A stretch of 34,580 bases of DNA from Bacteroidota bacterium. Its GTDB lineage: Bacteria > Bacteroidota > Rhodothermia > Rhodothermales > JANQRZ01. Positions within the stretch are counted from its first letter, which is position 1, and every line of letters starts with the position of its first letter. The DNA lies in contig JBCDKT010000041.1 in the NCBI GenBank assembly GCA_038746285.1, forward strand, positions 1 to 34,580, written 5' to 3'. A program made the translations under genes and the position numbers. Positions 11,982-31,346 of this stretch are shown piece by piece. The notes under the pieces are model-generated. The model saw only the letters and a list, made by a program, of their open reading frames with translations, made no database searches and had not been told where the DNA came from.

Positions 11982-14900
11982 CTACGGGAGCGCAGCAAGA
12001 TGACGTTTCGCACGCTCCTTGAGCCGTGAGAACGCGGCCGCTAGCTGGGCGACATTCCAGTCCTTCAACTCGAGGTAGCGCGGGTGCATGGGCCGGATGT
12101 CGAGCCCGTCCGTAGGCGTCTTGACGAGGAGCCCTGCGAACGGGTACCCATGTCGCCGGAGGCGCTGGGCTGCCGATTGGTCGAACACGGGAGGCGGCCC
12201 GTCCGCGAACAGCGCAGAGGCGTAGTGCTGCGCAAGGTCGAGGAGCGTGGCCTCCTCGACGATTGCCCGCGCCGCCGCCGTCCACGCACTCTCGCGTGCC
12301 GCGGACTGGTACGCCTCATGTTTCGAGCGGCGCTCTCTCTCGGCCTGTAGGGCCTCCTGGAACACGGCAGCGATCGCCTCCGGGACATCGCCTCCGGGCT
12401 CTTCCCCAGCTGGAGGCTCCTCACGGAGCCGCTGAACCATGTGCACCGGCTCGCCCCGCTCGACCTCGTACCAACCGACGGCACCGAGCGCGGCTTCCGC
12501 CAGGCGGGCATACGGGGGCACGAGCCCCTCGACCCGCTCGTGCGGCTCACGCAGGAGGACAGGGAGGAGCGGATGCCCGTACGTCAGCAGCTCCACGGTC
12601 GACGGATGTGCGTCGGCCACTGCTCGGTCGAACGTCACGGTGTGATCGTCACCTCCGTATTCGACAACGAACGCCTTCGGGACGGTTGGGTGCAGCCGGA
12701 ATCGCGTGGCCGAGGGGAGGTCTTGGGCGAGCTCCCTCTCCAAATCGGCGAGCGTCACCGGCGTCCCTGTGGCGCGGTCCTCCTCCGCCTCGCTGGCCCA
12801 CGTATCCAGGTCGAAGCCTGCCTGGGCTTCCTCGAGTGCGTCTTTTACCTCGTTGAGCCCCTCCTGCAGCGTGGCCTCTCGCTCGGCCTCTGGCGTCAGC
12901 GCTGCCTGTTGGATCAGACGGCCCACCCGGCCGAGGATGGGCTGGAGACGACCTACGACGTTTTCGAACCAGTCGATGCGGTCCTCCAGAGCTCGGTACA
13001 CCCGCGCTTCCACCGTCCCCTCGTAGAAGTAGTTGCGGACCCACACCTCGGGGTACCGCTGACCAATCCGGTCCACGCGTCCGATCCGCTGCTCCACCCG
13101 CATGGGGTTCCATGGCATGTCGTAGTTGACCAGCACGCCACACGTCTGGAGATTTAGCCCCTCGCTCGCTGCCTCTGTGCACAGGAGGATCTTGATCGCC
13201 TCGCCCTCCCGGAACGCCCGCTTCATCTCGGCCTTCGTCTCCTCCACCCACGCCACTCCGTCCCACCGCTCACCGCCGCGTCCGCTGTAACACCCCACCT
13301 GCGATCCATACACCGCCTTCAATTCCTCCCGCAGGAAGTCCATCGTGTCGGTGTACTGAGTGAACACAATGACCGTGTCCCGCTGGCGAAACACGTCGTG
13401 GAGGTACCGCAGCAGTCGCTCCACCTTCGAGTCCACGGAGCCTTGGAGCGTGAGGTCGCTCAGGAAGTCCTCGACGTAGCGGATCTCGGCCTGGAACAGG
13501 CCCGGGTCCGCGTCCTCGACCGCCTCGTCTAGATCGAACTCCAGCGTCAGCTCTTCGAGATCGTCGTCGTCGAACGCCGACAGCTGGTTCGCGGCCTCTT
13601 GCGCTTGGAGACCTCTGAGAAAGTTGAGCCGACGCTCAAGGCTTTTCCGCACGGCGTAGAAGCTGCTCGTCAGCCGTCGCCGGTACACCGTCATCACGAA
13701 CCCGAGCCCCTTGCGCTCTGCCTCGTACGTCCGGTAGAAGTGTGTGATGTACTCCTCAATGCGGTCGTACAGCGCGGCCTCCGCCTCCGTCATCCCCACC
13801 CACACGGGCTGGGCATCCCGGTGCGGTACGGAGGCATCGAGCAACCCCCGTGCGATGTACCGCCGGAGGAGGTCACGGGTGTTTCGGATGACCAGCCGAC
13901 GCAATGGCGTATGGTGACGCGCCAACGCCAGCGCCGCCTCTCGGCCGGCCTCGCTGAGCAGCGCGATCGTCCGCGCCGGCGCCCGGTCTGTAAGTAGCCC
14001 GCGGACCCGCTGCCACTCCACCGGCCCGAGCTCCTGGCTGACCGTCCTCTCGAAGTGCGGGTCGAGCCCGTCCACCTCGGTCTCCTCCCGGACCAGCCCA
14101 AACACGTACTCCACGTCGGCGGCCGAGAGCCCTTGGCGGAGCTCGGTAAAGAACCGGAGGTATTCCTGGCCGTCGGCGGCCCACGTCCCACTCAGTCCGA
14201 GGAGGTGAAGGAGGTCCCAGACCTCGATCGGGTGTACCTGCATCGGCGTCGCCGTAAGCAGCAGCATCCCCCGGGTCTTGGCCTCCAAGCCAATCAGCAG
14301 TTCCAAGAGCCGATTCGGCCGGTACGCGGTCGCGTCCTGGAAGTCCTTGCGCCGGGCGTGGTGCGCCTCGTCCACCACCACGAGGTCCCACGGCTGCGCC
14401 GCCAGCACTTCGGGCTGACGCTCCCGTCGCTTGACGAGGTGGCTCGACGCCAACCCCACCTCCACCGCGTCCCACGGATTACCTGTCCCCACCGGCGTGA
14501 CCTCGCCGTAGATGTCCACCCACGATTGCCCGTCGTAGACCGGCACGTTCATGACGAACTTCTCGAACAGCTCCTCCTGCCACTGCCGGAGCACCGACTT
14601 CGGCGTCAGGATCAGCACCCGCCGTGCCCGGCCTGAGAGCACGAGCTGGCGGATTGCCAGGCCGGCGGAGATCGTCTTTCCCAGCCCGACCTCGTCGGCG
14701 ACGAGGTACCGGCGGGGGAACGTCTCCACCACACGCTGCGCGATGTAGGCTTGGTGTGGCCATGGCTCCACCCCGCTCGTCGCGGCGCCCAGCCCCGACG
14801 CTCCGAGCAGCCGCGGCGCGTCTAGGAGGTACTGGGCCACCGCACGATCCGTGAGGGTGGACTGCTCGGTGTCTTCCGGCTGTGGAAGCTCGTCCTCGCC

Positions 14901-15620
14901 CCGCTCGTGCGGGTCTCGTGACGGCGGCCGGTCCGGCGTGTAACGAAGCAGCTTCTTCCGCGCCGCCTCGGGCACCTCCATTGCGATCCAGTCCGGCTCG
15001 GTCCCTGTCCACAACCGGTCGAACCGGCGCTGCGCCTCGCCAATCCACACGTCACCCCCGCCCCACGAGGTGAAGACGAAGAACTCCTCGTAGTTCTTGA
15101 TCCACCCGCTGACGGACTCGTTCGAGGAGCCGCTGAACGCGAGACGGTTGCCGGCCTCATCGGTGAAGATGCCCGTCTTGGGGTGGTAGTACTCCCGCGC
15201 GACGGCGCCCGAGAGGGGAAGCCCGTTCGGACCCTTCGGTAGCACGACTTTGACCTCGAGCGTGCCCTCGGCCACCATCCAGGCCAGCGCCGCCAGCCGG
15301 TCGCGGAGCGCGCCCTCGGCGTCCTCATCGAGGCGCGAGCTCATCGCCTCCGAAACCCGTTCGTCCAGCGACGCCCCGGCCTCGATGGCCTGGACGTCCT
15401 CCTCGCTCAGTTGTGCGCCCACGAGCAGCCGCATCCGGCCATCGCGCGCGATCAGCCGCGCCAGGCCCGCCGCTGCGATCCCCAGCGTGTGGCTGGAGAA
15501 GAACCCGGCGCTCCGGTCGTACCGCACGCTCGCACTCAGCGCGGGGATGTAGAACCCGTGCAGGCGGTCGTCCGAAGCCCCGTACGACGGGCGGAAGTCG
15601 TGGTCGCGAAGCGATACCAC
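11982..15620 (-). CDS. PLD-like nuclease domain fused to SNF2-family helicase (defence operon)
   Basis: This protein of 1212 residues has an N-terminal phospholipase D-type region with HPKTGIF (His146, Lys148) and GSSNES (164-169). That is one HxK...GSxN active-site half, as in PLD nucleases that act as dimers. A SNF2/RapA-like ATPase follows: DEVGLGKT (309-316, Walker A), DEAH (417-420), LLTATP (454-459). The C-lobe has VIVFTQYTD (about 750), LLCTEAASEGLNLQ (812-825) and QRIGRVDRIGQ (844-854). The remaining 350 residues are charged and helical. GTG at 15620 lies 3 bases after the methylase stop. It is the last gene of the DUF499/ASCH/DUF1156 operon and is the likely DNA-translocating and cleaving effector. 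The family is known from predicted anti-phage clusters related in layout to DISARM. Confidence 0.9.
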   Translation of the reverse strand: MVSLRDHDFRPSYGASDDRLHGFYIPALSASVRYDRSAGFFSSHTLGIAAAGLARLIARDGRMRLLVGAQLSEEDVQAIEAGASLDERVSEAMSSRLDEDAEGALRDRLAALAWMVAEGTLEVKVVLPKGPNGLPLSGAVAREYYHPKTGIFTDEAGNRLAFSGSSNESVSGWIKNYEEFFVFTSWGGGDVWIGEAQRRFDRLWTGTEPDWIAMEVPEAARKKLLRYTPDRPPSRDPHERGEDELPQPEDTEQSTLTDRAVAQYLLDAPRLLGASGLGAATSGVEPWPHQAYIAQRVVETFPRRYLVADEVGLGKTISAGLAIRQLVLSGRARRVLILTPKSVLRQWQEELFEKFVMNVPVYDGQSWVDIYGEVTPVGTGNPWDAVEVGLASSHLVKRRERQPEVLAAQPWDLVVVDEAHHARRKDFQDATAYRPNRLLELLIGLEAKTRGMLLLTATPMQVHPIEVWDLLHLLGLSGTWAADGQEYLRFFTELRQGLSAADVEYVFGLVREETEVDGLDPHFERTVSQELGPVEWQRVRGLLTDRAPARTIALLSEAGREAALALARHHTPLRRLVIRNTRDLLRRYIARGLLDASVPHRDAQPVWVGMTEAEAALYDRIEEYITHFYRTYEAERKGLGFVMTVYRRRLTSSFYAVRKSLERRLNFLRGLQAQEAANQLSAFDDDDLEELTLEFDLDEAVEDADPGLFQAEIRYVEDFLSDLTLQGSVDSKVERLLRYLHDVFRQRDTVIVFTQYTDTMDFLREELKAVYGSQVGCYSGRGGERWDGVAWVEETKAEMKRAFREGEAIKILLCTEAASEGLNLQTCGVLVNYDMPWNPMRVEQRIGRVDRIGQRYPEVWVRNYFYEGTVEARVYRALEDRIDWFENVVGRLQPILGRVGRLIQQAALTPEAEREATLQEGLNEVKDALEEAQAGFDLDTWASEAEEDRATGTPVTLADLERELAQDLPSATRFRLHPTVPKAFVVEYGGDDHTVTFDRAVADAHPSTVELLTYGHPLLPVLLREPHERVEGLVPPYARLAEAALGAVGWYEVERGEPVHMVQRLREEPPAGEEPGGDVPEAIAAVFQEALQAERERRSKHEAYQSAARESAWTAAARAIVEEATLLDLAQHYASALFADGPPPVFDQSAAQRLRRHGYPFAGLLVKTPTDGLDIRPMHPRYLELKDWNVAQLAAAFSRLKERAKRHLAALP

Positions 15621-15623
15621 GAC

Positions 15624-18464
15624 CTAGGCGAACAGCTCGGCCTGGACCTCCTCCATCGGGTCCTCGGGCGGCTCGATGTCGGGAAAGAACGCGGCCCGCA
15701 GCGCCTCCAGCTGCGCCGCCTCGGGGCGGAGGAACTTGCCCTCCTTCTGGACACGCGGCACGGCCTTGACGAACGCCTCGACGGCCGACCGGAACGCGCC
15801 ATCGCGCAGGAGCCCGGTCCGCTTCAGGAACGCCTCGCACGCGGCTCCGCCGTCCTCAGCGTAAACGAGCATCGCCGTGTGGACTGCATCCACGAGCGCG
15901 TCGAACGTATCGGCCTCGGGGTTCACGGCACTCTTGCCGCGCCGCGTCTTCGGCTCGGCCAGGATCACGTCCTTCCCCTTCTTGGTCACGATCTTGTGGC
16001 GGACGAGGTCGCCCTCCATCTCGAGGTTCAGCGCCAGCGCCAGCTTCCGCGCCTCGTCGGCCGGGAAGCGGGCGGCCTGGAAGGCGTCCCACGCCATGAG
16101 CGTCCAGTCGGTGAGCGGGTCGAACGCCACATCGCGCCCGCCCAGCAGACCCGCCTTCCGGAGACTAACGACCTCCTCGCGCGCCAGCGACAGCGCCGTG
16201 TCCGGTCGGAGCGGCAGTGGGTCGCCGGTCTTTTCGTCGATCTCGCTCGTGAGGACCGGCCAGCTCTTGGAGATCACCGAGAGGACTGGGCCGAACGTGG
16301 CTACGTAGAGGTCCACGCCGCTCACGCCTGCCTCGGACAGCTCCTCGGCCGTCTGTCGGGCCGTCCGGCGGACCTCGGCCTGGATGTCCTCCCACCACAC
16401 CGCCTCTCCGTCCGCCTGGCGCTTCCGGCAGGCGAGGAGGATCGTGCTCTTGGCCGCGTTCTTCTTGGCCTGGTGGAGCGAGTGCTCGCTCTCGGTATGG
16501 ACTGGCCACGAGCTCTCGACGGTGAACCCGGACCGGATAAGCGCGGTCGCGAGCGTATCCCACGCCTCGACCTTCTTGTGCGTGAACATCACCGTCAGCA
16601 CGCCGTCGTCGACGAGCACGCGGTGGGCCTCGCGGAAGGCGTCGGCCATCTTCCGCTCGTAGTCGCGGTCGGCGAGCTGCCCCTTCTTCCGGCCGAGGTC
16701 AGCGAACCGGGCTGGGTTGGCCACGGCCTCGTCGTCCTTGTTCGTGAGCTGGGCCCCGTACCACTCGGGGTAGAGGTCGCCAGCCGTTCGCTTGAGCCAG
16801 ACGTAGAAGAAGTCGGCCAGCTCGGCGTACTGGACGTTGTCGTAGTACGGCGGGTCGGTGACAACGGCGTGGACGGAGGTGTCGGGGACCCCGGTGAGGT
16901 CGGCCGCCGAGCCCTTGCGGAGTGTGAGGTCACCGAGGAGCGGGCCGCTCCCGTTCAGCGAGGCGTCGGCGTCAGGCGCCAGCTTGACGAAGTCGCGGTA
17001 GGAGTCCGCGATCTGGTCGACCGCCCACGGCAGCAGGTTTGCGGCCGCATCGAACTCGCCGTAGCTCCAGACGATGGAGTAGTTGTGCTTGTCGAAGATG
17101 CTCCGGATGCCTCGACTCGGGTCGAGCCGCCCCGCTACTGAGTTGTAGATGACAGCCTTGTCGAGCACGTACGCGAGGTACGTCAGGAGCGCCCTCGCTC
17201 GCTCCCCGCCTACTTCCCTCTGGATCTCGGGCTTCAGTTCGGCCAAGACTTCGCTGAACGTGCCCAACGAGAGAAGCTGGCGGTCGTTGAAGAAGTCGGC
17301 CCAGTTCTCCATCCCGTAGAGCCGATGCCCGCGGTCGTAGTTGGATATCCCGATGGGCTCGGTCGGAATCACATCCTCGGCCTCCCAGCGTGGACGCCGT
17401 CGAGCGAGTTCCGCCGATGCCTTCTCGATGGCATCGAGGTCCTCGTCCGTCGGCGGTCGGAAGTCGAAACCGCCCGATCGCTTGAGCGCGACGGCGTAGA
17501 GCATGTGCCCCATGCGCCCGGCCTGAGCCTCCCGCTTGATATGCTTGCCGTCGATGGTGTCGCCCTTCCAGGGCGAGCGACCTGTGCCGTACGAAACCGT
17601 CCCGTCGGTCGGGTCGAAGTCGATGTCAGCCCCGCTCCGGATCTCGAAGCGAGGTACCTCCCAGTCGTCACGGACGAGGAGCTTGACGGCGACATCTGGA
17701 TCTTTGCCGAGCCACCAGTTGGGTGTGAGCGGAACCGGCTTGCCGGTCGTCGGGCAGGCCACGGTGCGTGCCCAGAGGTATGCCTGGACGTTCTCGCCCG
17801 CGGCCTTCGGAAAGTATGGCGCTAGCCGCTTTTCTGATCGAGCTACCCATTCCGCCCCCCACTTCTTGATCTCAGCTCTGAGCTTCTTACCAAAGCGGAA
17901 GGGGAAGTCCAGGGTCCCCTCGAGGATCGTGCAGGCCACCGGGTTCAGCTCGTTTGCCACCACGTTGAACCCGTACCGGCGCGCCTCGAAGGGAATGGAG
18001 CCGCCACCTGAGAACGGGTCCATCACCGTCAGTCGCTCCTCGCCCCACGTCTCCTTCAGAATCTGACGCATCAGCGCGAGGTCCTCTGGCGCTGGGTTGA
18101 CCGTGAACGCCCGGTCGTGCGTGTAGGGGTTCTTGGTCAGCTTGATCTTCCCAGCCTTGTCGGCCTGGATCAGCTTCCGCGCCGCCACCGGATCGCCGAG
18201 GATACCGAGCAGCCGAAGGAACCACGCCTGGTACTTCTCTTCAGTCGGGAAGCGATCGCGAAAGCGCTCGGGCAACCCGTCGTAGGGCGGTAACACGCTC
18301 GCCACAATCGTCGCACGCGAGACGGTGAGCGGTCGTCGGGCCCACCAAACGTGGATCCGGTTGAGCGGAGGCTTCAGCGCTGCGCTCTGGTCCCGCAAGC
18401 TCTCCGCTCCCACAGTTTCAAAAGGGAGCCAGTCTTCGAGGAGAACGTCGGGGCGGTCGGGCAT
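15624..18464 (-). CDS. DUF1156-domain adenine-specific DNA methylase (COG1743-like)
   Basis: This is a predicted N6-adenine methyltransferase of 946 residues. The DUF1156 region opens the protein (NRIHVWWARRPLTVSRA, residues 35-51). The SAM-binding motif DPFSGGG is at 149-155 and the catalytic TDPPYYDN at 536-543, so the two halves of the catalytic core are split by an insert of about 380 residues. Relatives carry a Zn-ribbon in that insert; here the expected CPxCG reads CPTTGK (Cys237 only), so the ribbon seems lost. The gene is followed by the helicase after 3 bases and preceded by the ASCH-fusion gene after 68 bp. It probably marks host DNA so that the helicase-nuclease attacks unmarked DNA (inference from restriction-modification logic). 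Confidence 0.92.
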   Translation of the reverse strand: MPDRPDVLLEDWLPFETVGAESLRDQSAALKPPLNRIHVWWARRPLTVSRATIVASVLPPYDGLPERFRDRFPTEEKYQAWFLRLLGILGDPVAARKLIQADKAGKIKLTKNPYTHDRAFTVNPAPEDLALMRQILKETWGEERLTVMDPFSGGGSIPFEARRYGFNVVANELNPVACTILEGTLDFPFRFGKKLRAEIKKWGAEWVARSEKRLAPYFPKAAGENVQAYLWARTVACPTTGKPVPLTPNWWLGKDPDVAVKLLVRDDWEVPRFEIRSGADIDFDPTDGTVSYGTGRSPWKGDTIDGKHIKREAQAGRMGHMLYAVALKRSGGFDFRPPTDEDLDAIEKASAELARRRPRWEAEDVIPTEPIGISNYDRGHRLYGMENWADFFNDRQLLSLGTFSEVLAELKPEIQREVGGERARALLTYLAYVLDKAVIYNSVAGRLDPSRGIRSIFDKHNYSIVWSYGEFDAAANLLPWAVDQIADSYRDFVKLAPDADASLNGSGPLLGDLTLRKGSAADLTGVPDTSVHAVVTDPPYYDNVQYAELADFFYVWLKRTAGDLYPEWYGAQLTNKDDEAVANPARFADLGRKKGQLADRDYERKMADAFREAHRVLVDDGVLTVMFTHKKVEAWDTLATALIRSGFTVESSWPVHTESEHSLHQAKKNAAKSTILLACRKRQADGEAVWWEDIQAEVRRTARQTAEELSEAGVSGVDLYVATFGPVLSVISKSWPVLTSEIDEKTGDPLPLRPDTALSLAREEVVSLRKAGLLGGRDVAFDPLTDWTLMAWDAFQAARFPADEARKLALALNLEMEGDLVRHKIVTKKGKDVILAEPKTRRGKSAVNPEADTFDALVDAVHTAMLVYAEDGGAACEAFLKRTGLLRDGAFRSAVEAFVKAVPRVQKEGKFLRPEAAQLEALRAAFFPDIEPPEDPMEEVQAELFA

Positions 18465-18532: not shown

Positions 18533-19441
18533 TTAGGAGCCGAGCAGCACCCGGAGCGCGCGTTGTGCGTTCGAGGCCTGCGTTCCGCCGCTGCACTTCG
18601 AGAACCAGTAGTAGGCCTCCTCGTCGCTCATGTGGCGCACGCCAGTTGAGATCGCCTCGATCCGGTCGTACCGCGACAGCGGCTTCACGGCGAGGAACAC
18701 GAGGGCGAGGCGGAGACCGGTCACCTCGTCGAGGTAGAACGGCGCCTTCGGACGGCGGGAGAGGTCAGAGGGGCGGTGGCCGTTGGCGCGGAGCGCTGCC
18801 AGCAGTCGGTCTGAGACGGCCCGTAGCGCGTCGCCCCCCAGCTCGATCCCCCACAGCGCGCCCGGCACCGAGACCGCCTCTCCAAGCATCGGCTGGGACT
18901 CATCGCGCTGGCGGACGTGCTGGTAGAGGGCCACGCGGTAGCCGTCGCCATCGGGGAGCGTGAACAGCGCGAAGGGCCGGGTCTCGTCGAGGTGACCGGC
19001 GTCGTAGGTCGGCTCGTGCGCGTCCTGGCGGAGCGCGTCCCCCTCGTACACGGCCCCGAGGCGGTCTTCCTCTACGTCGAATAGCCCCATGCGCCCCCGC
19101 ACGGGCACCGGCCGCGGCAGCCGCCGCGCGTCCTCGAACTGCCAGCCGTACTGGACACCGCCCGGGAACGGCCCATCGTGGAGGTGCTCGTGGCGCCGCG
19201 CCTCCCAGGCCGCCTCGTCTACCGGCACCACGTCCACGAGCGTCACCGTACCCACCACGGCCCCGTAGTGGAGCGCCTCGGGGACGAACCCGAGCCCCCG
19301 GATCCGTCGTACCCGTCGCGTGCTCCCGGCGTGGACCGCCAGCGGCCCGCGGTGCTCCGTCGCCCAGGTCCGCACGTCGAGCGTCCGGGCCCCGTCCACG
19401 GTCTGGGCCGCGCGAGGCTGTCGGATGGAGAGCGCCTTCAT
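18533..19441 (-). CDS. ASCH-domain protein with uncharacterised C-terminal domain (defence operon)
   Basis: This protein has 302 residues. Residues 1-120 are a clear ASCH domain (PUA-like fold): MKALSIRQPRAAQTV, VRTWATEHRGPLAVHAGS, VVGTVTLVDVVPVDE. ASCH domains bind RNA or modified nucleotides, and some are nucleases or base readers. Residues about 165-302 form a separate domain (FALFTLPDGDGYRVALYQ, LWGIELGGDALRAVSDRLLAALR, YDRIEAISTGVRHMSDEEAYYWFSKC). It occupies the slot where related DUF499/DUF1156 clusters carry a small uncharacterised protein such as DUF3780. ATG at 19441 overlaps the DUF499 stop (ATGA), so translation is coupled. It could be a specificity subunit recognising base modification. 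The fusion to ASCH is what I find unusual. Confidence 0.75.
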   Translation of the reverse strand: MKALSIRQPRAAQTVDGARTLDVRTWATEHRGPLAVHAGSTRRVRRIRGLGFVPEALHYGAVVGTVTLVDVVPVDEAAWEARRHEHLHDGPFPGGVQYGWQFEDARRLPRPVPVRGRMGLFDVEEDRLGAVYEGDALRQDAHEPTYDAGHLDETRPFALFTLPDGDGYRVALYQHVRQRDESQPMLGEAVSVPGALWGIELGGDALRAVSDRLLAALRANGHRPSDLSRRPKAPFYLDEVTGLRLALVFLAVKPLSRYDRIEAISTGVRHMSDEEAYYWFSKCSGGTQASNAQRALRVLLGS

Positions 19442-22400
19442 GCGTCCACCTGCTCGGCCACCGTCGCGCGGAGGGTGATCCGGGCGGTCCCCAGCGTCGT
19501 CGTGAGCACGTCGTGGATCGTACCAAACCGGTCGCCCGCCAGTGGGAGAGCGTCGGCGTACATCGCCGTCACGCCCAGCGCCACCTGGAGGTCGCTCGCT
19601 TCCTGGGCCAGTCCGTCGGTCGTCTGCTTCAGCCGCTTGTACAGCGCGTCCGAAAGGCGGCCCTGTATCTGGAGGTGTTGCCCGTCGGCGAACTCGGCCG
19701 TCAGGGTCACATCGACGACGTACTCCGCCCGGCCCATCTGGGCGAGCGCGAGCCCGAGGCGGCGCATCCCATCGGCGCCGGAGGTCCCCGTCCCGTCCAA
19801 CCGCACCGCCAGCGAGCCGATGGACTCCACGTCTGCGTCGTGGCACGCGTCGAGGAGCTGCTGGACCGCCTGCTGCGGCGGCCCCTCGCCTCGTAGCGCA
19901 GCGGTGGCCGTCGCCGACTCCCCCTGGCCGCAGGTGCACGCCTCGGCCGGGTTGCCGCACACGGGGCACGTCTCGACGGCGCCCGCGCTCCCATCACCAG
20001 ATGCGTCACCCGCGCCGGCCGCCTCCTTCCCCTTGATCGGGAGCGACCGGGCCGCGGCCTCCTCCGGCGTGTACAGGATCACGTCGTCGGAGAGCTGGAC
20101 CGCCGGTGGGGGCGACTCGTGGTCGTAGCCGACGCCCTCGCGCGTGTCGAACAGCACCCACTGCTTCTGCTCCACCCCGTTGCGGATCGTCTTCTTGAGC
20201 TGGTTCGGGTCCAGCAGGAACGGGAGCGCGATCCGGCGGGCAAACGCCTTCCGCAGCTCCTCCGTCGTCAGGTGCGTCTGGTTCGTCTCCCACGCCCGGC
20301 TCCGGACGTAGGCCCCCGAGAGCGCCTTGTCGTCGCCCGTCAGCGTCTTCGCCTGGTCCTGGAGCACCCGGAGCACGACGGCGCTCTGATCCCGCTTGAC
20401 CTGCCCCTGGTCTTGAGCAGGCAGCACCTCGTGTGCGAGGTTTCCGTGTGCGGCGGCCGCGTCGGCGCGCGGCACGTAGAGGTGGCGGTACGCCTTCGTC
20501 ACGGCCACGCGTACCTCCAACTCGGCCGCCTCGCTGAGCTTCTTCAGCTTCTTCCGGTCCTCGGCGGAGAACCCCCGCATCCGCTCTCCATCGCCGAGGA
20601 TCCGGCCGATCGCGAGGTAGCGCCGCATCACGTCCACGAGATGCTCCGCTTGGTCGGCGTCCGCGACCAGGAACATGAGGTTGTTCTTGAACCGCCGGAA
20701 CGCCCCCTGCGAGCCTTGATGGTCAAACAGCTGACGCACGAGCTCTGGCGGCTCGGTCGTCTCGGCACCGACCGTGGCGGCGTCGTAGTGGAGCACGACG
20801 AGCTTGGGGAGCGCCGCGTCGTCGGTCACGTCCCCTGCGTCGTCGGGAAAGTATCTCGGGTCGAGGACTCCCCGTCGCCACACCTGTTTGATCCGGGCAT
20901 CCAACTCGGACTTGGCCGCGGTCCGGCCCACCATGTCCGTCTCGTCGGACACGATCTTGTTCAGCGAGGGCTCGGTCTTGAATCGGTACCGGTGGCCGTC
21001 GAAGTCGAAGAACCAGCCTGTGTCCGTGAGCCGGTCGACGGCTCGCTCCACAAGCAGCGGGTCTCCTCCCGGCTCGAGCACGGCGAGGCGGAGGTCGGCC
21101 GGCTCCACGCCCGTCGCCGTCCCCAGCGTCAAGCTGTGCACGAAGACCGTCGCCGCCACCCGTTGGGTGTAGGGTGGCCGGCCCGCCGCGAGGTGCTCGC
21201 GGTCGGCCTCCTCCGCCTTCCCCTTGGATCCCATCAACGCGCTCACGATGTCAGCCTCGATCACCTGCTTGAACGCGGGCCGATCGAGCCGGCTGGTCAG
21301 GTCGTTTGCCACTCCCTCTATGCCCAATGGGACGTGGTGGAGGTGAACGCTTGGCGCCTCGACGGCTCCGTCCTCCCAGAGCGCCCTCACCACCCGCGCC
21401 AGAAGCCGGAGCGCCCCGCGCGTTTTTTGGAAGTTGGGGATCGTCGCCGTCTTCTTCGACAGCGTCGTCAGGAGCTCGGGGTGGAAAGGGTAGGCCGCCT
21501 CAAATTCCCGAGCGTAGTCAGCCTGGAGTGCACGACTCGGTAAGTCTGTGCCTTGGTCGCTCCACATACGGAAGGCCTCGGCGTAGGCCTCCGCCGTCTC
21601 CGCGGCCGCCGCTGCGTCCACAGACTCGAACAGCCGGTGCCGCACGATCGCTGCGATGTCGGTCTCACCCGTCGGCTGTACCACCATCTCCTGCCGGGCC
21701 GACACCTTCCGTGCCTCGTCCAGCGCGTCGTGCACCCGCGCCGTCTGCTTCGCGAAGGCATCGCCGGTTCCAGCCAGCGTGAACACCACGGACACCCGCT
21801 CGCGGCCCGCTGCGAACTCCAGCAGCGACATAAGGAAGGCCACGGTCTGGTCCGCGAGCGTCGACTTCCCGACCTCAATCGCCTCCGCCGTCTCGAGGTA
21901 CCGCGCGATCTCATCGATCATGATGACGGCGCCTCGGTCCCCGAGCACCTCGTCCAGAAGCGAGGTGCCGGGCGCCGCCCGCTCCTCGTCGCTCCGGCGT
22001 GCCTTCGCGTACCCGTCGGCACCGCCGAGCTGGTACGCCAGCTCACCCCACAACGTGTACGTCCGCGTCCCGTCTGCGTGAACCAGCCCATCCGACGAGC
22101 TCAGGTCCGTGCCCACGACCCCAGCGACTCTGAGCGCTCCCGAACCCGGAAGGAAGGCCGGGTCCACGAGCCCCTCAACGTCCTGCGCCGACGCGTTCCC
22201 TGCCGCGGCGTGGTAGAGACCGATCAGGTTGTGCGTTTTGCCTCCTCCGAACGCGGTCTCGAGTCGGATCACCGGACTGCTCGTCGGCGCCGCTCCCGTC
22301 GCCCGGCCTAGGGACTCCTTGAGCAGTGTCCGCAGGCCCTCCGTGGGGTAGGTGTTGGCGAAGAAGCGGGAGGGGTCCTGATAGACGGGGTCCGCCTCGC

Positions 22401-22500
22401 CGGCGATGACCGCGTTCAGCTTGGCTGCGAAGATCTCATCGGTGAGTTTGCCGCTACGGACTTCGGGGCGCGGGACACAGATCTGCTGAATTGAAAGCAC
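19438..22500 (-). CDS. DUF499-domain AAA+ ATPase (COG1483-like, defence operon)
   Basis: This is a large P-loop ATPase of about 1020 residues and the first gene of the four-gene operon. Walker A is ETAFGGGKTH (81-90) and Walker B AVIMIDEIAR (191-200), both characteristic of the DUF499 family. Middle-region motifs include SGAYVRSRAWETNQTHLT. A small Cys cluster CPVCGNPAEACTCG (845-858) forms a possible Zn knuckle, followed by about 160 residues of mixed alpha/beta sequence. There is no ATG near the family start; GTG at 22500 (VLSIQQICVPRPEV) gives the expected N-terminus, while the frame upstream reads through another gene. DUF499 proteins occur with DUF1156 methylases and PLD-SNF2 helicases in predicted defence islands. 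Its role may be sensing or loading. Confidence 0.9.
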   Translation of the reverse strand: MLSIQQICVPRPEVRSGKLTDEIFAAKLNAVIAGEADPVYQDPSRFFANTYPTEGLRTLLKESLGRATGAAPTSSPVIRLETAFGGGKTHNLIGLYHAAAGNASAQDVEGLVDPAFLPGSGALRVAGVVGTDLSSSDGLVHADGTRTYTLWGELAYQLGGADGYAKARRSDEERAAPGTSLLDEVLGDRGAVIMIDEIARYLETAEAIEVGKSTLADQTVAFLMSLLEFAAGRERVSVVFTLAGTGDAFAKQTARVHDALDEARKVSARQEMVVQPTGETDIAAIVRHRLFESVDAAAAAETAEAYAEAFRMWSDQGTDLPSRALQADYAREFEAAYPFHPELLTTLSKKTATIPNFQKTRGALRLLARVVRALWEDGAVEAPSVHLHHVPLGIEGVANDLTSRLDRPAFKQVIEADIVSALMGSKGKAEEADREHLAAGRPPYTQRVAATVFVHSLTLGTATGVEPADLRLAVLEPGGDPLLVERAVDRLTDTGWFFDFDGHRYRFKTEPSLNKIVSDETDMVGRTAAKSELDARIKQVWRRGVLDPRYFPDDAGDVTDDAALPKLVVLHYDAATVGAETTEPPELVRQLFDHQGSQGAFRRFKNNLMFLVADADQAEHLVDVMRRYLAIGRILGDGERMRGFSAEDRKKLKKLSEAAELEVRVAVTKAYRHLYVPRADAAAAHGNLAHEVLPAQDQGQVKRDQSAVVLRVLQDQAKTLTGDDKALSGAYVRSRAWETNQTHLTTEELRKAFARRIALPFLLDPNQLKKTIRNGVEQKQWVLFDTREGVGYDHESPPPAVQLSDDVILYTPEEAAARSLPIKGKEAAGAGDASGDGSAGAVETCPVCGNPAEACTCGQGESATATAALRGEGPPQQAVQQLLDACHDADVESIGSLAVRLDGTGTSGADGMRRLGLALAQMGRAEYVVDVTLTAEFADGQHLQIQGRLSDALYKRLKQTTDGLAQEASDLQVALGVTAMYADALPLAGDRFGTIHDVLTTTLGTARITLRATVAEQVDA

Positions 22501-22571: not shown

Positions 22572-23489
22572 CTATGACCAGGTCCGGTGATCGACTGGCG
22601 TGAAGCTGACGATCCGGAAGTACCTCCCCGGCGTGATTCGCCGCTGTCGTCGCCACACCCCGTCCCCGTCGCGCTGGCTCCCCGCCCGGCCCGGCGACGT
22701 GTTCCCCTCGACCGTCTCGCCAGAGGCCCCGTCCCAAGCCACCGCGAACCCGGCGTGCCCGAACGGCCCGTTCCCCTTCCGCCAGACCACGACAGCCCCC
22801 GGTGGCACCCGCTTCACGCCTCGGAGCGCCTCGCTCGCCCTGATGCTCCGCGCCGTGATGAACCGGGCCGCAAGCCCTGAGCGGATCACGCGCCGTCGGC
22901 CGTCGAGCGGGGCGCGGACGCCGGCCGCGTCGAGCACGTAGCTCACGTACGCCGCGCACCACGGGTTGCCCGGCCCGAGCCCGACCGAGCGCAGGAACCG
23001 CTCGACCCGCGCCCCCCGGTTGGTCCCGCCCCGCTCGACGGTCCCTACGTAGGCTAGCGCCGTGTCGAGGTGGGCCGGCCACACCCGTGCCGGCGTGGGT
23101 AGCTCAGCCGCCGCCCCGCCGTCCGCTGGCGGCGCGCACGAGCAGGCGCATCGGCACGCTGCCTCGCCGTCCGTCTCCGTCACGACCGGGAGCGTAGTGG
23201 CCGGCTGCGCCGTCGCGACGGTCGCCGCGAGCAGGACCGCCAGCGCGAGGAGCGCCAGCGCGTACGCCACGTTCCCCGCCTTCAACTCGGCTACGGTGTC
23301 GACCTCGTCGAGCACGTACCGGTCGAACGCCCAGAACAGCCCGACGGCCAGCGCCGCCTTCAGCATCCCGGCCGCGAAGCCCGAGAGCTCGATCGGGGTC
23401 ACGGCCCCGTCGCCACCGTCGGTGAACGTGGCGTAGACGGCCGTCCCCGTCGCGAGGAGCAGGGCGGTCAGGAACTTCTCGGCCTTCAT
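22572..23489 (-). CDS. Membrane-anchored CHAP/NlpC-type peptidoglycan amidase
   Basis: This protein of 305 residues has two parts. Residues 1-95 contain three hydrophobic segments (about 6-22, 35-60, 74-95), holin-like in pattern. A Cys-rich linker (ACRCACSC, 111-118) leads to a C-terminal CHAP-type domain with GNPWCAAYVSYVL (Cys178) and GPFGHAGFAV (His245). CHAP amidases cleave cell-wall peptides. Stand-alone endolysins lack such a membrane region, so this may be a wall enzyme tethered to the inner membrane. The gene lies 71 bp upstream of the DUF499 start in the same direction. It is followed upstream by a small membrane protein and DUF6266, with no capsid or tail genes. Lysis, DNA transfer or wall remodelling are all possible. 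Confidence 0.75.
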   Translation of the reverse strand: MKAEKFLTALLLATGTAVYATFTDGGDGAVTPIELSGFAAGMLKAALAVGLFWAFDRYVLDEVDTVAELKAGNVAYALALLALAVLLAATVATAQPATTLPVVTETDGEAACRCACSCAPPADGGAAAELPTPARVWPAHLDTALAYVGTVERGGTNRGARVERFLRSVGLGPGNPWCAAYVSYVLDAAGVRAPLDGRRRVIRSGLAARFITARSIRASEALRGVKRVPPGAVVVWRKGNGPFGHAGFAVAWDGASGETVEGNTSPGRAGSQRDGDGVWRRQRRITPGRYFRIVSFTPVDHRTWS

Positions 23490-23533
23490 CGGTCCGCGGG
23501 GTGAGTGGGTATGAAGCCAGATGCCTGGCCGGG

Positions 23534-23803
23534 CTACCGGTCGAGCCGGTCCTCGAGGTGGTCGAGCCGGCGCTCGACGTGCTCGATCCGCCGCTCGTGG
23601 CTCGCCTGCTCGACGAGGACGCCCGAGAGCGACTCGCCGAGCCGCTCGAGCCGGGCCGTGTTCACGGCGATGTCGTCGGCGATCCCGTCGAGCGTCCGGT
23701 TCGCGCTCCACCCGAAGAGCGCGACCAGGAGCGCCACGACGAGGTGGAGCGCGTTCCGCGCGAGCCATCGCTCGACGGTCGGGGTATGAGCGCGGGAGTC
23801 CAT
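23534..23803 (-). CDS. Small membrane/coiled-coil protein (spanin- or holin-accessory-like)
   Basis: This protein of 89 residues has one transmembrane segment (HLVVALLVALFGW, about 19-32) followed by a long heptad coiled coil (about 38-89: DDIAVNTARLERLGESL, RRIEHVERRLDHLEDRLDR). That is the layout of phage Rz-like spanins and many holin-accessory proteins. The gene is 44 bp upstream of the CHAP gene in the same direction, supporting a lysis-cassette reading. I cannot assign a family. Confidence 0.6.
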   Translation of the reverse strand: MDSRAHTPTVERWLARNALHLVVALLVALFGWSANRTLDGIADDIAVNTARLERLGESLSGVLVEQASHERRIEHVERRLDHLEDRLDR

Positions 23804-23958
23804 CGGTCTCGGGGGCCATCGGTCCGGGCGGAGACAACGCCGGCCCCGCTCCCAGTTCGCTCCTGACCAACTCCCACTAGGGAGCGGTCGAGGCGAGTGG
23901 GAACGAGGCCAGTGCCTCGGGTGAGCTGCGGCGTCAGCCTAGGGCTCTCAGCCCGCGG

Positions 23959-24723
23959 CTAGACGAGCGCCCCCGGGTCGTCGGGGACCGGGCCCTGCTC
24001 GGCCCCGCCGTTCTGGAACGCGGCCCGCTTGCTCGCGCCCGTCACGACGACGTCGGCCCCGGCTCCGCCGTTGGCGTCGGCGTCGTAGCGGACCGAGCCG
24101 TGGAAGGCCAGCTTCGGGTCACCGCCGGCGACCGGCCGGTACGGGACGACGTGGACGGCGTACATGGCCCGGTCGGCGAAGGGCACGCCGAGCGCGGCCT
24201 GGCCGTCGGCCCGCGTGAGCCCGGTGATGACGTCCTGCGCCGCGCCGTCCGGACCGGCCACGACGACGGCGACCGCGTCGTCGGGCTGACCACCAGCCGC
24301 GTCCCACGTCACGAGCGTGTCGCCCGCGCCGTCGTCGGCGAGCGCGAGCGGCTCGGCCGGGGCGAGGCCGCCCCGCGTGAGGAGCATCTGGGCCGCGTCG
24401 AACGTGCCGGCGTCGGCGCCGGGCACGCCGTCCGCGCGCATGACGCGGACGTTGGCCCGGACGAACTCGTTGAACGCCGTCGTCGCGTTCCGCCCGCTCC
24501 GCTCGAACCGGCGCCAGTACGGGCGGACGAACGCGTCCATGAGGGACGAGCCGGCCCGGGTGAGCTGGGCGAACAGGTCGCGCTGGGTCGTCTGGGCGGC
24601 GGTCTGGGGGTTGGTCGGCGTGACGCGGGCGCGGATCACGTCCTTGCCGCGCCACTTGGTCATGACGACGGTGCCGACGGCGTTCCGTCCGCCGCCGAGG
24701 ATGCCCCGGTCGAGGATGGCCAT
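23959..24723 (-). CDS. DUF6266 family protein
   Basis: This protein of 254 residues begins MAILDRGILGGGRNAVGTVVMTKWRGKDVIRARVTPTNPQTAAQTTQRDLF-type sequence, the recognisable N-terminus of DUF6266 proteins of Bacteroidota. The C-terminal half (about 130-254) reads as a beta-rich domain with GDTLVTWDAAGGQPDDAVAVVVAG-like strands. The function of the family is unknown, though it is often found in phage-like or accessory regions. ATG at 24723 was chosen because the family signature begins right there. It is separated from the small gene at 24939 by a 215-bp gap with strong repeats, so it probably starts its own transcript toward the lysis-like genes. Confidence 0.75.
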   Translation of the reverse strand: MAILDRGILGGGRNAVGTVVMTKWRGKDVIRARVTPTNPQTAAQTTQRDLFAQLTRAGSSLMDAFVRPYWRRFERSGRNATTAFNEFVRANVRVMRADGVPGADAGTFDAAQMLLTRGGLAPAEPLALADDGAGDTLVTWDAAGGQPDDAVAVVVAGPDGAAQDVITGLTRADGQAALGVPFADRAMYAVHVVPYRPVAGGDPKLAFHGSVRYDADANGGAGADVVVTGASKRAAFQNGGAEQGPVPDDPGALV

Positions 24724-24938
24724 GGGTCTGTTTGGGGGGTGAAGGAGCGCCCAACCTCGGCGCCGCACTCGCGCCCGTCCAGGTCGACTCCCCGACCTCA
24801 CGGGAGTCCACCGCTCGCCCCACCTTTCATTCAGCCGACCTCTTTCCTTTCGATCAGCCGGCGCACTGACGGTACGCGGAGTGGTACGGAACGTCGGTAC
24901 CTAGCGCCAAATACCGACAGTTCGTACCACCTGCGCCG
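24724..24938. promoter_or_regulatory. Gap with GGTAC array and large inverted repeat
   Basis: GGTAC occurs at 24871, 24883 and 24896 (12-13 bp apart, like the arrays at the element ends). A near-perfect inverted repeat follows: arm 24881-24899 against 24912-24930 with a 12-base loop. It can serve as a terminator for the gene ending at 24939, as an operator for the DUF6266 gene, or as an extra recombinase or excisionase binding site. The rest of the gap (24724-24870) shows nothing else. Confidence 0.6.
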
Positions 24939-25297: not shown

Positions 25298-26767
25298 TCA
25301 TCCCTCTGAGTCGCTTGGGGCGGCGGCGTAGAGGTCCTCCAGCGACCAGCACGTCACGGCGTGGCCGTCGGCTTCGGCCGCCGCGCGGAACCCCTCGGCG
25401 AACCCTCCCGCCGCCACGTACAGGAGCGGCGCGCCGTCCTCGAGCGCCTCGTGCGCCCACCCCCGGCCCGACGCCGCCATCCGCCGGAGCTTGTCGAGGT
25501 GCGCCTCGTGGACGGCCGCCCCCACCGGCTCCCGGTTCCACTTCACCTCGCCCGTCAGCACGCCGCCCCCCAGGAGCCGCGCGACGACGTCGAGCTCGAC
25601 CGGCTGGCGGTCCCGGTCGACGCCCTCCCACCGGCCCCACTCCGACACGATCGGGAGCCCCAACGCCGTCGCCCTCCGGTCGTACGCCTCCACGGCCACG
25701 CGCTCGAACTCGTGGCCCATGTACTGGTCGAGCGACGGGGCCACGGCCTCGTCCCAGACCTGCCGGGCCGGCACCCGCTCCAGGGCCGACCGGTTCGGCG
25801 CCACGAACCGCTCGTAGAACCGGAAGGCCGCGTCGGCCACACCGTAGCGGATGGCCGCCGACGGCCCCGCGTCGAGGTTGCCCCGCGTCTCTACGTACCC
25901 CAGCTCGATCAGCCGGTCCAGCTTGTCCCGGAGCGCCCGGTCGTTGCCGAGCCCGGCCCCCTGTGCGACCTCGTTCCGCGTCGTCCGCCCGCTCGCGACG
26001 GCCCGGAGGATGGCCCGGTACTTCGAGACGTCCCGGAGCCCCTCCTCCTGCTCGAGCGCCGTCTCCACGAGCAGCCGGACCTCCCCCTTCGGGTCGAGCA
26101 GGAGCTCGGCCGCGTTCTCCGCCAGCAGCCGGCCGGCGTCGACGGCCGCGAGGTACCGGGGCGTCCCTCCGAACACGCCGTACGCCAGCGCCCGCTCCCT
26201 CAGGTCGGCGAAAGGGGCCATCTCGCCCGCGTGCCAGTACCCGAAGGGCCGGAGCCGCCCGTGCCACGAGAACCGGCCGTAGAGCGGGCCGCCCCCTCCC
26301 GCCAGCGCCTCCATCGTCCCGACGGCCGAGCCCGAGAGCACCATCAGGAACGGGCGCTCGGGCCGCCGCCGCTCCCACGCCGCGTTGAGCTCGGACGCCA
26401 CCTCGGCCGCGCCCGCGTCGCCGTCGCCGAGGTACTGGAACTCGTCGAGCACGACGACGAGCGGGCCCGGCGCCCTCAGGTCCATGAGCAGGTTGAACAC
26501 GGTCCGCCACGTCGGGTAGTCCTCGGCCCGCAGGTCCTCGCCCGACCACGCCGCGAGGTCCTCGACGAGCTGGCGGCGGTTGACCTCCGGCGTCGTCTTC
26601 GACGCCGTGAAGTAGAACGAGGCCCGCTCACCCCACGTGTGCGTCAGGAGGTACGTCTTCCCCACCCGCCGGCGCCCGGTCAGGAGCGCGAGGTGAGGGC
26701 GGCCGGAGTCGGCCAGACGGCGGAGCGCGGCCTGCTCGGCGTCGCGGTCGATGAGGGGGGAAGCCAC
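25298..26767 (-). CDS. COG1672-type ATPase with PD-(D/E)xK-like C-terminus
   Basis: This protein of 489 residues has TGRRRVGKTYLL (about 30-41, Walker A), LVVVLDEFQYL (103-113, Walker B) and LSGSAVGTM (sensor 1). A winged-helix region (about 270-310) follows. The C-terminal domain has VELDVVARLLGGGVLTGEVKWN, the E...E-V-K spacing of PD-(D/E)xK nucleases (DUF234 region). The layout matches archaeal/bacterial ATPase_2 proteins, often carried on mobile elements and suspected in defence or toxin roles. The start is GTG at 26767. The gene is 100 bp downstream of the integrase on the same strand, so it may be controlled with integration. Confidence 0.82.
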   Translation of the reverse strand: MASPLIDRDAEQAALRRLADSGRPHLALLTGRRRVGKTYLLTHTWGERASFYFTASKTTPEVNRRQLVEDLAAWSGEDLRAEDYPTWRTVFNLLMDLRAPGPLVVVLDEFQYLGDGDAGAAEVASELNAAWERRRPERPFLMVLSGSAVGTMEALAGGGGPLYGRFSWHGRLRPFGYWHAGEMAPFADLRERALAYGVFGGTPRYLAAVDAGRLLAENAAELLLDPKGEVRLLVETALEQEEGLRDVSKYRAILRAVASGRTTRNEVAQGAGLGNDRALRDKLDRLIELGYVETRGNLDAGPSAAIRYGVADAAFRFYERFVAPNRSALERVPARQVWDEAVAPSLDQYMGHEFERVAVEAYDRRATALGLPIVSEWGRWEGVDRDRQPVELDVVARLLGGGVLTGEVKWNREPVGAAVHEAHLDKLRRMAASGRGWAHEALEDGAPLLYVAAGGFAEGFRAAAEADGHAVTCWSLEDLYAAAPSDSEG

Positions 26768-26867: not shown

Positions 26868-28226
26868 CTACCGATCTGACGGCGAACGCCCTTCCGCCTC
26901 GCCGTCGGGCTGTGTCTCGTCGGAGGCGCCGTCCCCGGCCCCGAACGCGTTGAGGTACGCCTGGTCCAGGAGGTCCCGGCTGAACCCCTGGAGGTACCGC
27001 TCGGTCGTCGTCACCGACGCGTGCCGGAGCACCTCCTTGATCCCGTGCGCCCCGACCCCGGCCTCGAGAAGGTGGGCCGCCAGCGAGTGCCGCGCGAGGT
27101 GCGTCGTCACCCGCTCGGGGTGCGCGATCCCGGCCCGCTTCGCGAGCACCTTCAGCATCTCGTTCGCGTACGCGTTCCGGCTGGCGACGGCCGCCCGCCG
27201 CTTCGCCGGCGTCGACACGGACCGCCCGTCGAGGAGTGGGAGCACGAACCCGCCCTCGGCCACCGCCTCGGGGCGCCGCTCGGCGTACCGGTCGACGATC
27301 GCCCGGGCCTCGGGGATCAGCGGGATCGACGTCGCCTTCCCCGTCTTCTCCGCCTCGTAGCTCAGCTTCACCGCCGTCCCCGCCGCGTCGCGGACCACGT
27401 CGGTCCACCGGAGCAGGCACGTGTCCCCGAACCGCATGCCGCCGGCGTAGAACGCGAGCGCGAACCCGTCGCGGACCGCCTCCACCAGCGACCCCGGCTC
27501 GCACCGGGCCGCCGCGAGCGCGGCCACCTCCTCGACCGTCAGCCGACCCTTCTCCACCCGCTCGCTCCGGAGCAGCGCGTCGCCCTGGAGACGGTCGAAG
27601 GGGTCGCGGAAGGTGTCTGGGGCGTGGCCGTCGCGGACGGCCGCCCGGAGCGCCGTCCGCGTCGTCGTCAGCTGCTTCCGGACGTAGTTCTGCTTGAGCC
27701 CCTCGCCGTGGGGCTCCGGCGCCCGCATCGAGTGGCCCCATGCCCGGAGAAAGGCCGGCGTGATGTCGGCGTACATGAGCCGCCCCCGCGCATGCTTGGT
27801 CAGCCGGTTGCACGTCGTGTGGTACGCCTTGTACGTCGACGGCTGGCCCCGCTCGGCGAACGCGTCGACCCACCGCCGGAAGAACGGGAGGAAGTTCTCC
27901 GTCTGCGCCTCGTCGTCCGGCCCCGACACCCACCGGCGGAGGTGGCCCGCGAGCGCGTCGGCCGAGACCGGCTCGCGCGCCGCCGTCCGCCGGGCCGCCT
28001 CGCTCCGCCCCTCCGACACGGCCTGCCCGATGGCGTCGTTGACCTGGGCCGCGTCGGGTTCCGTTTTTCGCACCGCGCGCTTGTTCTCGTTCCACCCCTT
28101 CGGCCGCACCCGGAGCCCCAGCGCGACCATCCGTTTGGTGTCGGCGTGGCGGACCGCTAAATAGACCGGGGCGAGCCCGTCCTGGCCTATTTTGTCCGCG
28201 CGGAGCGTGGGGGTGAACGTCGCCAT
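26868..28226 (-). CDS. Tyrosine recombinase/integrase of the ssrA-inserted element
   Basis: This integrase has 452 residues. The N-terminal arm-binding domain (1-60: MATFTPTLRADKIG, PVYLAVRHADTKR, GLRVRPKGWNENK) is of the Bacteroidota type. The SAM-like core-binding domain spans about 108-205. The catalytic domain carries Arg265 (GGMRFGD), Lys294 (EKTGK), His376/Arg379 (THLARH), His402 (LRHAS) and Tyr411 (ERYLQG), so all active-site residues are intact. I chose ATG at 28226. A longer frame to 28310 would encode Pro/Val repeats produced by the GGTACCGG array, which is better seen as promoter and binding sites. It sits 176 bp inside attR, the usual place for the integrase of such an element. 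Confidence 0.93.
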   Translation of the reverse strand: MATFTPTLRADKIGQDGLAPVYLAVRHADTKRMVALGLRVRPKGWNENKRAVRKTEPDAAQVNDAIGQAVSEGRSEAARRTAAREPVSADALAGHLRRWVSGPDDEAQTENFLPFFRRWVDAFAERGQPSTYKAYHTTCNRLTKHARGRLMYADITPAFLRAWGHSMRAPEPHGEGLKQNYVRKQLTTTRTALRAAVRDGHAPDTFRDPFDRLQGDALLRSERVEKGRLTVEEVAALAAARCEPGSLVEAVRDGFALAFYAGGMRFGDTCLLRWTDVVRDAAGTAVKLSYEAEKTGKATSIPLIPEARAIVDRYAERRPEAVAEGGFVLPLLDGRSVSTPAKRRAAVASRNAYANEMLKVLAKRAGIAHPERVTTHLARHSLAAHLLEAGVGAHGIKEVLRHASVTTTERYLQGFSRDLLDQAYLNAFGAGDGASDETQPDGEAEGRSPSDR

Positions 28227-28254
28227 CTGGAGGGCGGCACCCCGGCGCTGGAGG

Positions 28255-28290
28255 GGTACCGGAATAGGTACCGGATAAGGTACCGGTTTG
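28255..28290 (+). repeat. Right GGTACCGG direct-repeat array (candidate integrase arm sites)
   Basis: Three 12-bp units (GGTACCGGAATA, GGTACCGGATAA, GGTACCGGTTTG) lie end to end, and an inverted copy CCGGTACC lies at 28311-28318. The array lies in front of the integrase gene and inside attR, with the same orientation as the left array. It may also autoregulate integrase transcription. Confidence 0.7.
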
Positions 28291-28339
28291 TCCTCCGCCC
28301 CGCCTACCACCCGGTACCCCCTCGCTCCTCAAATCGGCC

Positions 28340-30001: not shown

Positions 30002-30036
30002 CGGATCTGGAGCGAGAGAGCTGAGAGGATACCCGC

Positions 30037-30213
30037 TTATGTCCTGACCCCACAGACCCGCCGCGCCAGCCGGAGCATGGCCGAGGCCTCGTCCGCCGTC
30101 ACGACGTGCCCGGTGGCCGCACGGTCCTCGGCACGCTGCGCCAACTGGCGCGCGGTCTCCGCTGTGAGCGGCGGCCGCTCGACGAGTCGGAGCGGGGTGG
30201 TGCGGTCGCTCAC
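30037..30213 (-). CDS. Small hypothetical protein, 58 residues
   Basis: A GTG start overlaps the methylase stop (GTGA, 30213-30210), and the stop is 35 bases before the serine recombinase start. The product is helical and basic (LTAETARQLAQRAEDRAATGHVVTADEASAMLRLARRVCG) with no recognised family. Position and coupling suggest it is translated with the methylase and recombinase. A recombination directionality factor is one possibility, but that rests only on location. Confidence 0.55.
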   Translation of the reverse strand: MSDRTTPLRLVERPPLTAETARQLAQRAEDRAATGHVVTADEASAMLRLARRVCGVRT

Positions 30214-30950
30214 AGGTCCAGCGCCGGGGTCGAGAGAGCGTCCTCGATGCGGACGCGAGCGACGTCGCAGTACTCGGCCGACAGCTCGCAGCCCATGAAC
30301 CGCCGTCCCTCCATCGCACACGCGACAGCCGTTGTACCGGAGCCAGCAAACGGGTCGATCACCAGCTCGTCCGGGCGGCTCGCGGCTCTGACGAGCTGGC
30401 GCATGACGTCGGTCGGCTTGCCCGTGAGGTGGTGCTTGTCAGCTTGACGGACAGGCTCCGTTATGAGGCCAGGAAACGGGCCCTCTCCGTTGCGTTTCTC
30501 GCACGGCCCGGCGGTGCCCCACACGATGTACTCGCACTGGTGGCGATGGTAACCGGTGTGGGGCGCGCGGCTACCGCGTGTCTTGTTCCAGGGTACGATG
30601 CCCCGCCAGACCCACCCGCCCATCTGGATGGCGTCGGTAAGCGCTGGGAGCATGCGCCAGTCGGAGAACACGTAGACCCGTCCGCCCTCACGGGTCGCCT
30701 GTAGCGCCATCATCAGCCAGAGTGCCGCCCATGCCGCCCACGAACGCTGGTCGCGGTTGTCGCCTGAGAACGACGGTCGGCCGATCGCGTCACCGTTCTG
30801 GGCGTATTTCGCCTCAGGGCGCGCGGCACGGTCCGACCGGTGAAGACCACCAGATGAGTACGGCGGGTCGGTAACGACCGCGTCGACGCTCCCCGGTTTG
30901 AGAGAGCGGAGCCAGTCGAGGGCTTCGGCGTGGTCGATCGAGACCCTCAT
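30210..30950 (-). CDS. DNA N4/N6-methyltransferase (phage type)
   Basis: This methyltransferase has 246 residues. The catalytic motif TDPPYSSGG is near residue 27-35 and the SAM-binding motif DPFAGSGTTAVAC is near 198-210. This is the permuted order (IV before I) of the N6_N4_Mtase (beta) class. A middle target-recognition region includes GIVPWNKTRGSRAPHTGYHRHQCEYIVWGT. ATG at 30950 overlaps the upstream ASCH-like gene stop (ATGA). No partner restriction enzyme is seen, so it is an orphan methylase that may protect the mobile element from host restriction. The target sequence is unknown. Confidence 0.88.
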   Translation of the reverse strand: MRVSIDHAEALDWLRSLKPGSVDAVVTDPPYSSGGLHRSDRAARPEAKYAQNGDAIGRPSFSGDNRDQRSWAAWAALWLMMALQATREGGRVYVFSDWRMLPALTDAIQMGGWVWRGIVPWNKTRGSRAPHTGYHRHQCEYIVWGTAGPCEKRNGEGPFPGLITEPVRQADKHHLTGKPTDVMRQLVRAASRPDELVIDPFAGSGTTAVACAMEGRRFMGCELSAEYCDVARVRIEDALSTPALDL

Positions 30951-31342: not shown

Positions 31343-31346
31343 CGGC

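Follow-up and report, generated by a model that had tools for sequence, protein, structure and literature searches.

The question raised by this locus is what an ASCH domain does when it is joined to the small accessory subunit of a defence operon. The window (the whole stretch of DNA analysed here, 34,580 nucleotides) encodes such a protein on the minus strand between 18533 and 19441: a single open reading frame (ORF) of 302 a.a. with an ASCH domain (residues 1-124, 19070..19441, minus strand, placed by family profile and fold match), a helix (residues 125-138) and low-confidence linker reaching to about residue 156 (18974..19069, minus strand, placed by AlphaFold2 pLDDT and alignment) and a DUF7680 domain (residues 157-301, 18539..18973, minus strand, Pfam PF24728) with the fold order bbb-a-b-aaaa. 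An assembly or frame accident is excluded, as 19 further distinct proteins carry the identical architecture in a single ORF, and the fusion of an ASCH domain to a second domain proposed in a sequence-only reading of this DNA is thus borne out. The same reading called the C-terminal part uncharacterised, which is right for its function, but the domain has a name: residues 165-301 match Pfam DUF7680 (PF24728) at E 4e-34 (118 bits versus a cut-off of 24). The whole-protein AlphaFold2 model (mean pLDDT 88.7, pTM 0.60) consists of two confident domains with a weak stretch between them, and at this pTM the arrangement of one domain relative to the other is undefined. The linker differs in length among aligned relatives and has a pLDDT of 57-58 over residues 131-150; it is predicted to be flexible. 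The ATG of the fusion gene overlaps the stop codon of the DUF499 gene as ATGA, so the two genes are probably translationally coupled.

Identification of the ASCH half needed a family alignment: the window protein alone gives no ASCH match in Pfam or NCBIfam. PF04266 (ASCH) matches the N-termini of 10 out of 11 aligned fusions (best E 8e-10), and a joint profile of the fusion N-termini finds solved ASCH structures (TTHA0113 at E 4.6e-11, human ASC-1/TRIP4 at E 6.5e-9). The structure prediction that the sequence-only reading had called for gave an ASCH beta-barrel with a pLDDT of about 95 over residues 1-120, and the closest solved structure to this model is the TRIP4 ASCH domain with dsDNA (Z 16.1, rmsd 2.8, 124 residues), followed by ZmASCH (Z 13.7), TTHA0113 (Z 13.2) and, lower, YqfB (Z 8.5); taken together, these matches confirm the N-terminal ASCH domain. 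EVE, YTH and THYN1-5mC-DNA structures also match the model, farther than the ASCH structures, and a Pfam search at E up to 10 gives no EVE sequence match. The nearest PHROG to the ASCH half is 3193 (E 3.9e-27), an unnamed family of phage ASCH proteins whose profile is without the DUF7680 fusion. A motif of the GxKxxxxR type, GARTLDVR, lies at residues 17-24 (nt 19370-19393); GxKxxxxR is present in 18 out of 19 fusions, and the window carries R19 instead of the conserved lysine, which might mean weaker binding. Mean identity across the fusions is 53% for the ASCH half versus 57% for the DUF7680 half, and this near-equal conservation suggests that the ASCH half is under constraint. RNA binding is also possible for ASCH domains.

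The neighbours of the fusion gene form a minus-strand operon in the order DUF499 ATPase, fusion, DUF1156 methyltransferase and helicase with an N-terminal HKD nuclease. The DUF499 AAA+ ATPase (19438..22500; Pfam DUF499) is HmaC-like (PADLOC HmaC, E 2.9e-110) and likely starts with the GTG at 22500, because homologues align only from about there. The DUF1156 adenine methyltransferase (15624..18464; Pfam) is HmaB-like (PADLOC HmaB, E 3.2e-78), with DPPY at 16845-16856 and DPFSGGG at 18000-18020. The phospholipase-D (HKD) nuclease and SNF2 helicase (11982..15620) matches PADLOC models PLD_Helicase (E 1.5e-72), PbeA (E 2.5e-70) and HmaA (E 1.3e-67), as well as NCBIfam NF042964 (E 2e-120, under its curated cut-off); its HKD motifs HPKTGIFTD and GSSN (15120-15185) and helicase motifs GLGKT, DEAH, TATP and QRIGRVDR are intact, the integrity of nuclease, helicase and methyltransferase motifs having been judged by inspection. 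PADLOC has no model for the fusion subunit and returned no match to it. With DUF499 ATPase, DUF1156 methyltransferase and HKD-helicase all in one operon, the locus has the Hma/Type-2 BREX-related (BR) layout, and the defence operon recognized from sequence is upheld by the Pfam and PADLOC identifications and the intact catalytic motifs. So is the slot assigned to the fusion, that of a small accessory protein: DUF7680 fills the position held by DUF3780 in related clusters.

Just upstream of DUF499 lie, on the minus strand, genes for a CHAP-domain hydrolase (22572-23870) and a DUF6266 protein (23959-24801). An ATPase_2/DUF234 protein (25298-26767, minus strand) matches PDC-S27, one of the candidate defence families in PADLOC (E 1.1e-35). 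A tyrosine integrase gene (26868-28310, minus strand) directly adjoins one for a serine recombinase (28340-30349, minus strand), and with these two side by side the defence operon is probably inside an integrated element. The DUF6266 protein and the integrase type are, we presume, reminiscent of Bacteroidota-like mobile elements. A second ASCH-like ORF, phage-type, is found at 30947-31357 (minus strand; PF04266, E 0.001, 20.1 bits versus a cut-off of 21.2), where it overlaps the start of an N6/N4 DNA methylase ORF at 30210-31013.

If DUF7680 sits where DUF3780 is found elsewhere, are the two domains related? Pfam gives no DUF3780 match to the window protein at E up to 1, and PF12635 (DUF3780) matches nothing in the window's genome. 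In a profile comparison by hhalign, a DUF3780 query against DUF7680 scored 36.0 (P 5.9e-5), the best of 41 decoys reaching 27.1, with the aligned landmarks LGKELCVLaWA / tGlrLALvfLAv, PEERWWLf / SdEEAYYWFsK and GWRKALraAL / AQrALRvLL. Larger alignments gave P 1.9e-4 over 140 columns in this direction; with query and target exchanged the comparison is weaker, at P 0.0086 and, for the larger alignments, 0.047, and the case for homology therefore leans on several lines jointly. When a DUF3780 HMM was run over 15,369 ORFs with its own members removed, ranks 1-23 were all DUF7680 ORFs, which we count as one observation because these ORFs are related to each other. AlphaFold2 models of both domains have the order bbb-a-b-aaaa, and both occupy the identical operon slot. 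In FastTree trees of DUF499 and of the methyltransferase, a branch with support 100 separates the DUF3780-bearing systems from the DUF7680-bearing ones, and the accessory type changes the minimum possible number of times. Sequence search found no solved relatives of the DUF7680 or DUF499 parts, and the DUF3780 model has no fold match in the PDB. Together, the profile, fold-order, operon-slot and tree results are good evidence that DUF7680, in Pfam a domain of unknown function, is a divergent DUF3780. Cyanobacteria, Chloroflexota and haloarchaea would thus have it as a core subunit of their Type-2 BREX-related systems.

A search of genome contigs collected 127 DUF7680 relatives, 80 of which were kept. 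Eleven of these, all from Chloroflexota, are 46-59% identical to the window protein across both domains, although a contig end truncates L022 inside ASCH; the remaining 69 match DUF7680 only, with no ASCH in their ORFs. In total 20 distinct fused proteins were found, all in Chloroflexota but the window's. Among 396 Anaerolineae genomes DUF7680 occurs in 28, and in 19 of these ASCH is in the same frame; in the window's own phylum DUF7680 occurs in one out of 395 genomes, the window's alone. Most DUF7680 proteins are standalone (cyanobacteria, haloarchaea, actinobacteria and others). For example, plasmids of cyanobacteria, Rhodococcus and haloarchaea encode standalone DUF7680 proteins of 142-214 a.a. 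whose genes follow DUF499 and precede DUF1156; some of these loci also have toxin-antitoxin or PIN genes as insertions. We found no separate ASCH gene adjoining a standalone DUF7680 gene. Whether the ASCH part is the widespread normal form of this accessory protein, an objection already raised in the sequence-only reading, has a divided answer: the fusion is the usual form within Anaerolineae only, and elsewhere the subunit is without ASCH. Conservation of the subunit with DUF499 and DUF1156 genes, also suggested as a check, is general: it lies between the two in nearly all readable loci, the most divergent copies included. Short divergent DUF7680 proteins of about 126 a.a. were seen in five loci (L242, L243, L244, L245 and L248), some genomes having two copies; in L242 the short form is flanked by DUF499 and DUF1156, and the frame of the methyltransferase is split. 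A standalone EVE gene (4642-5070) is directly upstream of the DUF499/DUF7680 operon in a Leptolyngbya locus (L010), a partner of the type reported in PMC7641849.

The fused forms appear to share a history. In the tree of the short DUF7680 domain, in which many forks are open, one group of 15 (SH-aLRT 92) unites the 12 fused proteins with three Chloroflexota copies that have no ASCH, which fits one origin of the fusion with later losses; the FastTree trees of DUF499 and of the methyltransferase again cluster the fused systems. The fusion is genuine and old, and its conservation is mainly within Chloroflexota. A locus within the fused clade (L024, 3178-3705) begins MRALNFRATPPPEPDPDRPF, the ASCH start (MRALNF) being joined straight to the linker, and reads as a natural deletion of ASCH; because this relative lost the domain, the ASCH part looks like an add-on. 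Two other Chloroflexota loci, one with an in-frame DUF499-DUF7680 chimera (L025, 4306-5115) and one with stops and frameshifts (L026, 6008-7153), look like wrecked DUF499/DUF7680 copies. In the DUF499 and methyltransferase trees the window is a long branch nested in the Chloroflexota group. Lateral transfer is the simple reading of this position and, the fused clade being otherwise all Chloroflexota, the window probably acquired the whole operon in this way.

For the role of the ASCH half, we favour, as somewhat probable, the reading that a DUF3780-type accessory subunit, here in its DUF7680 form, docks on its partners and that the added ASCH domain is a second nucleic-acid contact that loads or licenses the helicase-nuclease. 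The DUF7680 half, as the element that stays constant in these systems, would dock on the ATPase-methyltransferase-helicase complex; the ASCH half, on its flexible linker, would make the second contact, with DNA rather than RNA as the likely ligand, and would help the helicase-nuclease to load on foreign DNA or license it to act there. The ASCH fold of human TRIP4 (ASC-1), the Z 16.1 match, is likewise coupled to a helicase: another part of TRIP4, a zinc finger, docks on ASCC3, which is a Ski2-like helicase. TRIP4 raises the DNA affinity of ASCC3 about tenfold, which is attributed to ASCH-domain contacts (PMC10076317). We take the functional likeness as an analogy. Against this reading, most DUF7680 proteins are without ASCH and L024 lost it, so that ASCH is not needed for the basic function; the undefined domain arrangement, the R19 of the window and the ability of ASCH domains to bind RNA speak against it as well.

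The sequence-only reading saw in the ASCH half a modification sensor. As a true reader, the half would recognise methylated or hypermodified bases and either turn the nuclease on modified phage DNA or keep it off the cell's own methylated DNA. We consider this possible, though rather unlikely. The PUA/ASCH/EVE/YTH superfamily includes modified-base readers, reader modules on DUF3780 are proposed in the available text of PMC12839542, standalone EVE genes beside DUF499 systems are predicted to target modified DNA (PMC7641849), and EVE, YTH and THYN1-5mC-DNA structures match the model, if more distantly. Against it, the nearest structure, TRIP4, was solved with plain dsDNA. Nor is the ASCH half fast-evolving (the 53% versus 57% above), which argues against a fast arms race, and its loss in L024 also speaks against such a reader. 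An RNA-directed or abortive-infection effect, with the ASCH half binding or cutting RNA, seems improbable: ZmASCH, a close fold match, cleaves ssRNA (PMC5615036), and some related systems have HEPN RNases on DUF499 according to the available text of PMC12839542, but the DNA-bound TRIP4 domain matches more closely and every partner in the operon acts on DNA. YqfB, which shares the superfamily and the fold, suggests a further activity, that of an amidohydrolase deacylating N4-acylcytosine, to which we give hardly any credence. YqfB requires K21, T24 and R26; with residues placed by the register of the GxKxxxxR motif, the window has arginine for the lysine, and each of the 19 fusions covering the region has D or E at the position of the threonine nucleophile (residue 22), so the Lys-Thr-Glu triad is absent and the activity is not expected.

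In a speculative and on the whole unlikely reading, ASCH would be a second recognition channel by which one complex attacks unmethylated as well as base-modified phage DNA, a channel that can be lost while the core is kept. The Chloroflexota lineage would then have a methylation-guarded HKD helicase-nuclease that senses both a missing self mark and, via ASCH, modified bases. Natural systems with and without the ASCH arm, including one in-clade loss, form a matched test set for the idea of a 'reader module'.

How does the locus compare with known systems? The window proteins strongly match the HmaB and HmaC models of the Hma system (HmaA, HmaB and HmaC in PADLOC); unlike Hma, the window has an N-terminal phospholipase-D nuclease on its helicase, and its ATPase and methyltransferase genes are separated by that of an additional subunit. 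The HKD-helicase/DUF1156/DUF3780/DUF499 operon was reportedly described by Gao et al. in 2020, in what is likely its first experimental report. Type-2 BR systems with DUF3780 were defined by Rakesh & Krishnan (January 2026, PMC12839542), and the available text gives them the same order of DUF499 ATPase, small subunit, DUF1156 methyltransferase and HKD-helicase, the small subunit being DUF3780 there and its relative DUF7680 here. One sentence of that text states that a subset of DUF3780 carries fused modules of a 'reader' type, ASCH/PUA or RAMA, which overturns the earlier remark that no described version was known. Among 35 DUF3780 ORFs (viral contigs, plasmids and three genomes) we found no ASCH-DUF3780 fusion, and none in 11 Anaerolineae genomes; an apparent 654-a.a. 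DUF3780 frame (L258) is merely a long upstream reading frame. As no sampled DUF3780 protein carries ASCH, the fusions in that paper may correspond to the DUF7680 proteins described here, or to others, the name DUF7680 not being found in the literature searched. With ASCH fusions on the equivalent subunit already in the available text of PMC12839542, the fusion is a well-supported variant to test and not a new system type; the information added here is the link between DUF7680 and DUF3780 and the single-clade history of the ASCH fusion.
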